The notes under the pieces: model-generated
Told to the model about the DNA's origin: nothing
Databases searched by the model: none
Seen by the model: the letters and a program-made list of their open reading frames with translations, nothing else
DNA from: Thermococcus stetteri
GTDB taxonomy: Archaea; Methanobacteriota_B; Thermococci; Thermococcales; Thermococcaceae
Assembly (NCBI RefSeq): GCF_017873335.1
Contig: NZ_JAGGKB010000001.1
Span: 124,001 to 188,000, forward strand
DNA length: 64,000 nt
Direction: 5' to 3'
Part shown: piece after piece, positions 53,036 through 55,119 of the stretch
How the letters are laid out: every line of letters starts with the position of its first letter
Numbering within the stretch: position 1 is the first letter of the stretch
Made by a program: the position numbers and the translations under genes

Positions 53036-53365
53036 ATGAACTCGGTAGTGATCGAGCCTCAGGTGTTACGTTCCCTTCATCGCAGCGAGCTCAGAAAGAG
53101 GATACTAATGTACCTCAACGAGATATACCCATCTGCCACATACTTATCCGAGATAGCGAGGGTAATCGGCTCCGATCCATCCAACGTTCGGGGAGCACTG
53201 GTCGGCCTCGGGAACCGGTACAACAACGAAAGTTCCCTCGTTTATCTTGGCCTTGTTGAAGAGATAAGCAGGAACGGCTTTAAGTACTATCGCCTGACAG
53301 AATATGGCAAGAAAGTCGTTGATTACCTAAAAGAGTACCACCGCTACTACAGACGCTTCCTGTGA
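53036..53365 (+). CDS. earA: EarA-like archaellum transcription activator (winged helix)
   Basis: A 109-aa single winged-helix protein. The helix-turn-helix is ATYLSEIARVIGSDPSNVRGALVGLG and the wing/end is YLGLVEEISRNGFKYYRLTEYGKKVVDYLKEY. The archaellum operon follows one gene downstream. EarA of Methanococcus maripaludis activates its fla operon by binding TACATA repeats. Four copies of that hexamer occur in the palindrome before flaB1 here. The assignment rests on size, fold, position and the operator match. Confidence 0.82.
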   Translation: MNSVVIEPQVLRSLHRSELRKRILMYLNEIYPSATYLSEIARVIGSDPSNVRGALVGLGNRYNNESSLVYLGLVEEISRNGFKYYRLTEYGKKVVDYLKEYHRYYRRFL

Positions 53366-53374
53366 GGTGGAGAT

Positions 53375-54334
53375 ATGTCCACCTCCTCGGTTCGCGCAGT
53401 TGATATCAACTTAGATCTTATGACCGAGCTGTCTCTGTTTTTCCTAGTTTCGCTCGGGACAAAGCGGGGCATTTTCTCGGCACTTTCAAAGCGGCCACTC
53501 ATCTCCAGGTTCATGGACGATGTCGGTATTCCCAACAGGAGGCTCCTCTCCCGCTTTTTAACGACCCTCAACAGGCTGGGTATCGCTAGGACCACAAATG
53601 ACCACCTTGAGCTGGTGGACTTCTCCCACAACTTAGTCATTACTAAAGACAGATACAGTGCACTAGTCCCCGACTGGGCGTCTGTCCTTGAGGAGATATA
53701 CAAGATGGTTGATTATGCATTCATAACCCCCACACACCCCCAGATACTCATGGACTTCGATAAAGACGCTGATTTCTGGGATATGAGGATGAGCACGAGC
53801 TTCTCTTCCCTTTACCGTCAGGCAATAGCTGAAGTGGCGGGCATAAAAGCCGGTATGTCCGTTTTAGACATTGGTTGTGGTTCAGTCTCTCCTGCCTATT
53901 TTGGGAGACTCGTTGGGTACAATGGATTCTACCTTGGTCTTGACTATTCCTATGCACTCCTGGATATAGCCCGCACCAGAATAGCCGGTGAATCCCTCCC
54001 CGTCGTTCTCAAAGAAATGGATGCCACACTTATACGCCCCGTGAACTCCTATGATGTTGTGATAATGAGCTTTTTCCTTGAGTATGTGCAGAATCGAAGG
54101 AGAATCCTAAAAAACGCCCTTGAAGGACTTAAGAGAGGGGGAAAGCTAGTCATTGTCGACCCCTTCAGGGACAGGTTCAAATATGTTCATGCCCTGGAGT
54201 TTTTTGAGTCTCTTAACAGGGACTTTGTAGGGTTTCCCTCCGTTTCCGAGATAAAGGAGATAGTTTCCAGCCTGGACTTTGAAGTGAGTGTAAAGTCCCC
54301 GGGCAGAAGCTTCCTCCTGCTGGAAAAACTGTGA
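53375..54334 (+). CDS. SAM-dependent methyltransferase, archaellum-associated
   Basis: A 319-aa two-domain protein: a winged-helix/dimerisation N-terminus (LVSLGTKRGIFSALSKRPLISRFMDDVG, LLSRFLTTLNRLGIARTTNDHLELVD) and a class I methyltransferase core (MSVLDIGCGSVSPAYFGRLVG, GLDYSYALLDIAR, YDVVIMSFFLEYV). The layout is that of O-methyltransferases of the plant caffeate type. Lying 9 bp after the regulator and before the archaellins, it may modify archaellin glycans or proteins; this is inference. ATG 53375. A T7 run follows at 54340-54346. Confidence 0.8.
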   Translation: MSTSSVRAVDINLDLMTELSLFFLVSLGTKRGIFSALSKRPLISRFMDDVGIPNRRLLSRFLTTLNRLGIARTTNDHLELVDFSHNLVITKDRYSALVPDWASVLEEIYKMVDYAFITPTHPQILMDFDKDADFWDMRMSTSFSSLYRQAIAEVAGIKAGMSVLDIGCGSVSPAYFGRLVGYNGFYLGLDYSYALLDIARTRIAGESLPVVLKEMDATLIRPVNSYDVVIMSFFLEYVQNRRRILKNALEGLKRGGKLVIVDPFRDRFKYVHALEFFESLNRDFVGFPSVSEIKEIVSSLDFEVSVKSPGRSFLLLEKL

Positions 54335-54346
54335 GCTTCTTTTTTT

Positions 54347-54376
54347 GTTATGTACCTACATATGTAGGTACATAAC
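54347..54376. promoter_or_regulatory. 30-bp perfect palindrome, presumed EarA operator of the archaellum operon
   Basis: The left arm is GTTATGTACCTACAT (54347-54361) and the right arm is its exact reverse complement (54362-54376). TACATA occurs at 54357-54362 and 54369-54374 on the plus strand and twice on the minus strand (TATGTA at 54349-54354 and 54361-54366). It ends 29 bp before the flaB1 TATA box, where activator sites sit. It could also fold as a terminator hairpin, but the T run lies before it, not after. Confidence 0.8.
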
Positions 54377-54395
54377 TACTTACACTACCAACAAC

Positions 54396-54455
54396 AAAAA
54401 AGAGCTTTATATAATACCTTCGTAATGAAAAATGCAAAGAACCCCTAGGGGGTGC
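54396..54455 (+). promoter_or_regulatory. archaellin operon promoter and leader
   Basis: AAAAAAGAGC (BRE-like) then TTTATATAAT at 54406-54415. Transcription should start near 54438-54441. The short leader contains CCCCTAGGGG (about 54442-54451), a self-complementary block that overlaps the GGGGGTG binding site and might modulate translation of flaB1 (ATG 54463). Confidence 0.75.
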
Positions 54456-54462
54456 GTGGCTA

Positions 54463-55119
54463 ATGAAGGCCAGAACTAGGAAAGGTGCGGTTGGTATTGG
54501 AACCTTGATTGTGTTTATAGCCATGGTGCTGGTGGCGGCAGTAGCCGCGGCAGTGCTCATCAACACGAGCGGCTACCTCCAACAGAAGGCCTCCAGCACC
54601 GGCAGAGAGACTACCCAGGAAGTTGCCAGTGGACTGCAGGTCGAGAAAGTAGTCGGTAAGACCGACTCTAACAAAACATACATCCAGTACATGGCTATCT
54701 ACGTCAGCCCGAACGCCGGTAGCGCGGGAATAGACCTTAAGAATACCAAGGTCATACTCAGCAACGGAAGCGTCCAGGCTGTTCTGAGCTACCAGACAAG
54801 GGCATACACAAACGGAGTCGTTAGCAACATATTCAACACTTCCCTCGAGGCGTGGAATAACATCACCACAGCAAGCACCGAGTTCGGTATCATCGTCCTC
54901 CAGGACGCCGACAATTCAGTCAAGCAGAACTATCCGACCCTTAACAAGGGCGACCTCGTTGTCCTGACGGTTCAGGTTGGCAACACCGGAGTATTCGGCA
55001 AGGGTATCCCACCGAGAACCAAGATAATCGGCAAGGTCGTTCCGGAGTTCGGTGCTCCGGGCGTCATCGAGTTCACCACCCCGAGCACCTACACCAGCGA
55101 GGTTATGACGCTGCAATGA
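54463..55119 (+). CDS. flaB1: archaellin B1
   Basis: A 218-aa type IV pilin-like filament protein. The class III leader MKARTRKG is cut before AVGIG by the archaeal prepilin peptidase, exposing the hydrophobic helix [21 protein letters not shown]. The body has the archaellin core [20 protein letters not shown] and several N-glycosylation sequons (NKT, NGS, NTS, NIT). The C-terminus [15 protein letters not shown] is shared with B2. First gene after the palindrome and promoter. Confidence 0.96.

Follow-up and report, generated by a model that had tools for sequence, protein, structure and literature searches.

The 64-kb stretch of Thermococcus stetteri DNA analysed here (hereafter the window) contains, directly upstream of the first archaellin gene, a region that is probably an EarA-dependent archaellum control element, i.e. 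one that would combine three-unit EarA binding, aid to TFB at a weak BRE, a palindrome derived from overlapping tandems and a joint motility and chemotaxis regulon. The core of this region is an order-wide feature of about 60 arl promoters: a rigid (ASSTACAY + 4 nt)x3 array with a 12-bp period that ends just before an A-rich weak BRE. The perfect palindrome found at the same place is a lineage-specific variant of this known EarA element. The features of the control region are as follows.

53036–53365, + strand: earA, winged-helix archaellum regulator (PF07381, E=8e-33; only copy in the genome; mean pLDDT 87 for the winged-helix model)
53375–54334, + strand: SAM-dependent methyltransferase gene between earA and the arl promoter (Methyltransf_11, E=1e-12)
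54337–54346, + strand: T-rich run downstream of the methyltransferase gene and probably its terminator (run seen in the sequence, role predicted)
54347–54376, no strand: 30-bp perfect palindrome (sequence and chance estimate)
54347–54353, no strand: left outer palindrome arm, lineage-specific (unconserved alignment columns)
54354–54365, + strand: EarA unit 1, ACCTACAT with spacer ATGT (order-wide conserved columns)
54366–54377, + strand: EarA unit 2, AGGTACAT with spacer AACT (order-wide conserved columns)
54378–54389, + strand: EarA unit 3, promoter-proximal, ACTTACAC (54378–54385) with spacer TACC (conserved columns)
54350–54369, − strand: reverse-strand tandem of two EarA boxes (54362–54369 and 54350–54357) on the DNA of units 1 and 2 (strict tandem pattern)
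54394–54401, + strand: ACAAAAAA, A-rich weak BRE block (near-invariant in the alignment; BRE role from PMC10665913)
54406–54413, + strand: TTTATATA, TATA box of the arl promoter (near-invariant in the alignment)
54463–55119, + strand: arlB0, first archaellin gene (PF01917, E=4e-45)

Three-unit array in arl promoters

EarA is essential for archaellation in P. furiosus (PMC10665913; Stöckl et al. 2023). The same study described the motif A(C/G)(C/G)TACA(T/C) in Thermococcales, in up to three adjacent copies located about nine nucleotides before a weak A-rich BRE, proposed that EarA recruits TFB and stated EarA targets beyond the archaellum operon as an open question. In M. maripaludis, fla transcription depends on four EarA sites, the loss of all four resembles an earA deletion, and deleting three A residues from the BRE bypasses EarA (PMC5512572; Ding et al.). 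Because EarA sites are known in both P. furiosus/Thermococcales and M. maripaludis, the presence and role of such sites at the T. stetteri promoter can be taken as established by homology.

The earA gene was found in 72 of 94 Thermococcales genomes and the loci were then compared, using an alignment anchored on the A-rich BRE that comprises 59 arl promoters plus five with a slightly different BRE. The first-pass annotation of the window had described a TACATA palindrome upstream of the archaellin gene; what the alignment shows as conserved is three direct 12-bp units. The array in the window reads ACCTACAT ATGT / AGGTACAT AACT / ACTTACAC TACC, then AACAACAAAAAA, and its units start at 54354, 54366 and 54378. 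Units 1 and 2 match the A(C/G)(C/G)TACA(T/C) motif exactly, and unit 3 has one deviation. Conservation sets in abruptly at 54354 and excludes the outer left arm of the palindrome; neither this start of the conserved block nor unit 3, which lies outside the palindrome, had been recognized in the first-pass annotation. The distance from the unit 3 motif to ACAAAAAA is 8 nt, a register that is constant across the aligned arl promoters, and all three units keep a fixed register to both the BRE and the TATA box. Other elements of the earlier description hold well: the gene two positions upstream that had been called EarA-like belongs to PF07381, the archaellum promoter does carry EarA boxes beside this genuine earA, and the spacing given from the palindrome to the BRE-like block and TATA agrees with an A-rich block from about 54394 and a TATA box at 54406–54413.

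These sites resemble the arlB0 sites of PMC10665913 in motif, in their up to three adjacent copies, in the A-rich weak BRE and in the nearby earA, whereas the text of that paper describes no 12-bp period, no dyad or palindrome and no boxes outside arl. They also resemble the M. maripaludis fla promoter (PMC5512572), where several 6-bp sites lie directly upstream of an A-rich BRE and transcription needs EarA; they differ in that the sites there are four TACATA copies. A broader likeness, by description rather than sequence, exists with the different regulators TFB-RF1 and Ptr2, activators whose sites lie upstream of a weak core promoter and which recruit TFB or TBP, as was proposed for EarA too (PMC10665913). 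The novelty for Thermococcales that had been suggested for the element is thus partial: EarA sites, up to three per promoter, were already published, but the palindrome is absent from the main texts of PMC10665913 and PMC8643681, and published knowledge of EarA sites is extended by the palindrome and the 12-bp geometry.

EarA-box tandems outside arl and the 23-bp motif of T. kodakarensis

The strict tandem ASSTACAYNNNNASSTACAY has 122 matches in the 94 genomes, mostly in arl and chemotaxis promoters, versus 11 for the reversed pattern; the genomes are related, so these counts are not independent events. Assigned locus by locus, the 46 strict tandems outside arl precede chemoreceptor or cheR genes (20), a CheY-like gene that follows the earA–methyltransferase pair in one subclade (seven), an AAA ATPase gene (seven) or earA itself (one), or lie between a DUF5658 gene and an uncharacterised gene (six); the other five are located in coding sequence or have no assignment. 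We also inspected 40 chemoreceptor (MCP) upstream regions, picked from the match list before their sequence was viewed: 17 contain the tandem at ≤1 mismatch and 22 at ≤2, while shuffled control sequence usually gave no better than 4–5 mismatches. MCP promoters without a box exist, several of them belonging to apparently operon-internal genes. In the T. stetteri genome, intergenic one-mismatch tandems outside arl occur about 70 bp before two MCP genes. Tandems are also kept in two genomes with no detectable earA, i.e. one before the DUF5658 pair in the near-complete G042 and two in the fragmented draft G050.

Villain et al. (2021; PMC8643681) reported a 23-bp motif, TTTGTGTABSTGBTTATGTAGGT, before the T. 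kodakarensis genes with the strongest induction by gyrase (fla with two copies, che, TK0156, TK2147, TK1139 and TK1605), where the arl induction is 54-fold; they called its function unclear, regarded it as topology-sensitive and speculated on a direct role in topology. The reverse complement of this motif, ACCTACATAAVCASVTACACAAA, equals two EarA units 12 bp apart; by sequence, the 23-bp motif is a tandem of EarA boxes. A pattern derived from ACCTACATAAVCASVTACACAAA matches at the arl, che, TK0156-, TK1139- and TK1605-like loci (MCP and AAA ATPase included) of G024, a genome taken as T. kodakarensis KOD1 whose gene order matches the published TK annotations. In the T. stetteri genome it matches at arl and both MCP promoters; control matches across the two genomes numbered 0 and 1. 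TK2147 was not recovered with the patterns used. The published motif and the EarA tandem thus occur in the same promoters (fla with two copies, che, MCP, AAA ATPase and TK1605), but the former was presented as topology-sensitive, with EarA unmentioned.

In T. kodakarensis histone mutants, expression is lower by up to 65-fold for arl, up to 10-fold for che and 5-fold for TK1139, and no candidate transcription factor was obvious to the authors (PMC8155482). EarA is not mentioned in that paper either, and PMC10665913 cites Villain et al. merely as a source of reads. A literature search, with most subscription papers outside its coverage, found no paper joining the 23-bp motif to EarA. We consider it reasonably likely that a single EarA tandem with a 12-bp period, reinforced by a dyad at arl only, serves as a joint motility and chemotaxis operator and that the 23-bp motif is this operator, so that EarA would supply the link so far missing from DNA topology or chromatin to motility. 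In T. kodakarensis, two transcriptome studies have seen the same motility and chemotaxis block shift, by up to 65-fold, with no regulator named; the EarA-tandem reading of the 23-bp motif turns this into one hypothesis that can be tested in an organism amenable to genetics. A probable EarA regulon that covers chemotaxis, together with an account of an unexplained motif, is a more valuable outcome than the palindrome. The palindrome is a natural test piece for the contribution of symmetry to activator binding.

Symmetry of the arl element and rival explanations

The 30-bp palindrome at 54347–54376, with GTTATGTACCTACAT and ATGTAGGTACATAAC as its arms, is perfect as first described (0 mismatches), and TACATA indeed occurs twice per strand, at 54349(−), 54357(+), 54361(−) and 54369(+). 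A perfect palindrome of this length is expected by chance 6e-5 times per window and about 0.002 times per 2.03-Mb genome of this size and composition, and the window holds no second perfect palindrome of at least 16 bp. Symmetry beyond the inner dyad described below is not conserved: the full 30 bp occur in this genome alone among those examined, and shorter versions measure 24 bp in G024, 22 bp in G028, 16–18 bp in 11 others and less in the rest. The left outer arm (54347–54353) falls in unconserved alignment columns (0.05–0.5 bits) and is partly common to G028 and G024 only.

The palindrome is composed of units 1 and 2 and the matching left flank 54347–54353. Unit 1 has a CC centre and unit 2 a GG centre, and they are joined by ATGT; therefore the minus strand of the two units also reads ACCTACAT ATGT AGGTACAT, another tandem. 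The palindrome is perfect because units 1 and 2 plus the left flank read identically on both strands in this species. In 46 of 56 arl promoters units 1 and 2 are separated by ATGY, compared with one of 28 strict sites elsewhere (Fisher p=1e-12, related genomes counted separately). The resulting inner dyad, ACCTACAT/ATGYASST, is conserved, widespread and arl-specific, the non-arl boxes being plain tandems without a dyad, so some symmetry probably matters for function. In a dyad covariation test across species, half pairs from mismatched species were nearly as complementary as true pairs (p=0.09, not significant); hence the comparison does not demonstrate selection for symmetry in itself. Full symmetry, which had been put forward as the defining feature of the site, is supported neither by this result nor by the outer arm, which is unconserved. 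Among the few promoters compared, arl is the strongest responder and has the most units and the sole dyad, which fits an effect on occupancy.

These data bear on the reading in which the full two-fold symmetry is functional, i.e. a 30-bp operator is bound cooperatively by two EarA dimers. We regard it as rather unlikely, although it would explain the perfect 15-bp arms, the shorter palindromes (24 and 22 bp in two relatives, 16–18 bp in 11 others) and the arl-specific inner dyad: the outer arm is unconserved, the covariation is not significant, the boxes elsewhere are plain tandems and the third unit lies beyond the palindrome. The AlphaFold monomer model of EarA (mean pLDDT 87) predicts a winged helix and a long C-terminal helix, and a fold search with it gave generic, weak winged-helix matches (E>0.005) to dimeric ArsR, MarR and AspA types; such a fold is compatible with dimers but no proof of them. 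A PDB sequence search gave no EarA structure.

Alternatively, the boxes could be bound by a different factor, or could themselves work as an element of DNA topology or chromatin, as speculated in PMC8643681, with EarA acting elsewhere. The response of the motif genes to gyrase and histone mutations (PMC8643681, PMC8155482) and the few genomes that keep a box without detectable earA would agree with this, yet P. furiosus archaellation needs EarA, the box is the EarA motif defined in P. furiosus and Methanococcus, and it abuts a weak BRE, which together make such a reading improbable. We give hardly any weight to an RNA hairpin (e.g. a terminator of the earA–methyltransferase transcript). The sequence could fold into a 13-bp stem (−18 kcal/mol) with a T-run just before it, but this run is 5' rather than 3' of the stem, i.e. 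on the wrong side, the element is conserved as repeats with the pairing disrupted in most relatives, and it keeps a fixed distance upstream of the promoter. We therefore rejected the hairpin and terminator reading. The idea that an EarA paralogue binds the boxes outside arl was also rejected because EarA is single copy nearly everywhere; the exceptions are an EarA-like domain in a longer frame in three genomes only, with a methyltransferase fusion in the one inspected.

Proposed EarA regulon and associated genes

In the EarA-dependent reading that we prefer, EarA, encoded two genes upstream, would bind the three 12-bp units at 54354–54389 and recruit TFB to the weak A-rich BRE, and the arl operon would then be transcribed. 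A forward and a reverse tandem sharing the same DNA give rise to the palindrome; the inner dyad probably raises EarA occupancy at arl, and the outer 7-bp arms are probably a recent elaboration in a clade that includes G024. The two-unit tandem before chemoreceptor, che and AAA-ATPase genes would allow EarA to co-activate archaellum and chemotaxis genes. As this tandem stands before all these genes and corresponds to the 23-bp motif, EarA probably activates motility and chemotaxis genes together, as one regulon. EarA binding at the arl site, its stoichiometry, TFB recruitment and EarA control of chemotaxis genes are inferred, and EarA may likewise bind the boxes outside arl. For the EarA explanation as a whole count (i) the adjacent, single-copy earA, (ii) the fixed three-unit register, (iii) the published P. 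furiosus and M. maripaludis results, (iv) the distribution of the tandems and (v) the match to the 23-bp motif, whose genes fall together in histone mutants. Against this explanation count the boxes kept in G042 and G050, the missed TK2147 and the boxless MCP promoters.

Several gene arrangements were observed at these loci. In essentially all Thermococcales loci the same fast-evolving methyltransferase gene directly follows earA. The two are joined in G073, where one 427-aa ORF comprises the methyltransferase and an EarA-like winged helix, and in two further genomes a 435-aa frame holds another EarA-like domain (locus L081; second copies in G077 and G085). In one subclade (L031–L035, L099–L101, L166, L167 and L197–L201) the arlB genes are oriented away from earA; the earA–methyltransferase pair is followed instead by a CheY-like gene that has an EarA tandem of its own. 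The tandem about 50 bp before earA itself (L190, G018) hints at autoregulation in that genome only.

EarA-like boxes also accompany genes of other annotation. A divergent DUF5658 membrane-protein gene and an uncharacterised gene (MLLTRHAKERL...) form a conserved pair with the boxes between them (L211, at T. stetteri C1:74514; L271, L168–L170, L178, L179 and L182). In several genomes the EarA tandem lies in the promoter of the AAA ATPase gene (TK1139-like; L163, L165, L180, L181 and L273), a gene whose annotation is unrelated to motility. Finally, an EarA-like tandem is conserved about 45–60 bp before a gene for a protein of about 146 aa with no Pfam match (L209, at T. stetteri C1:22945; L278, at G024:C1:316111).
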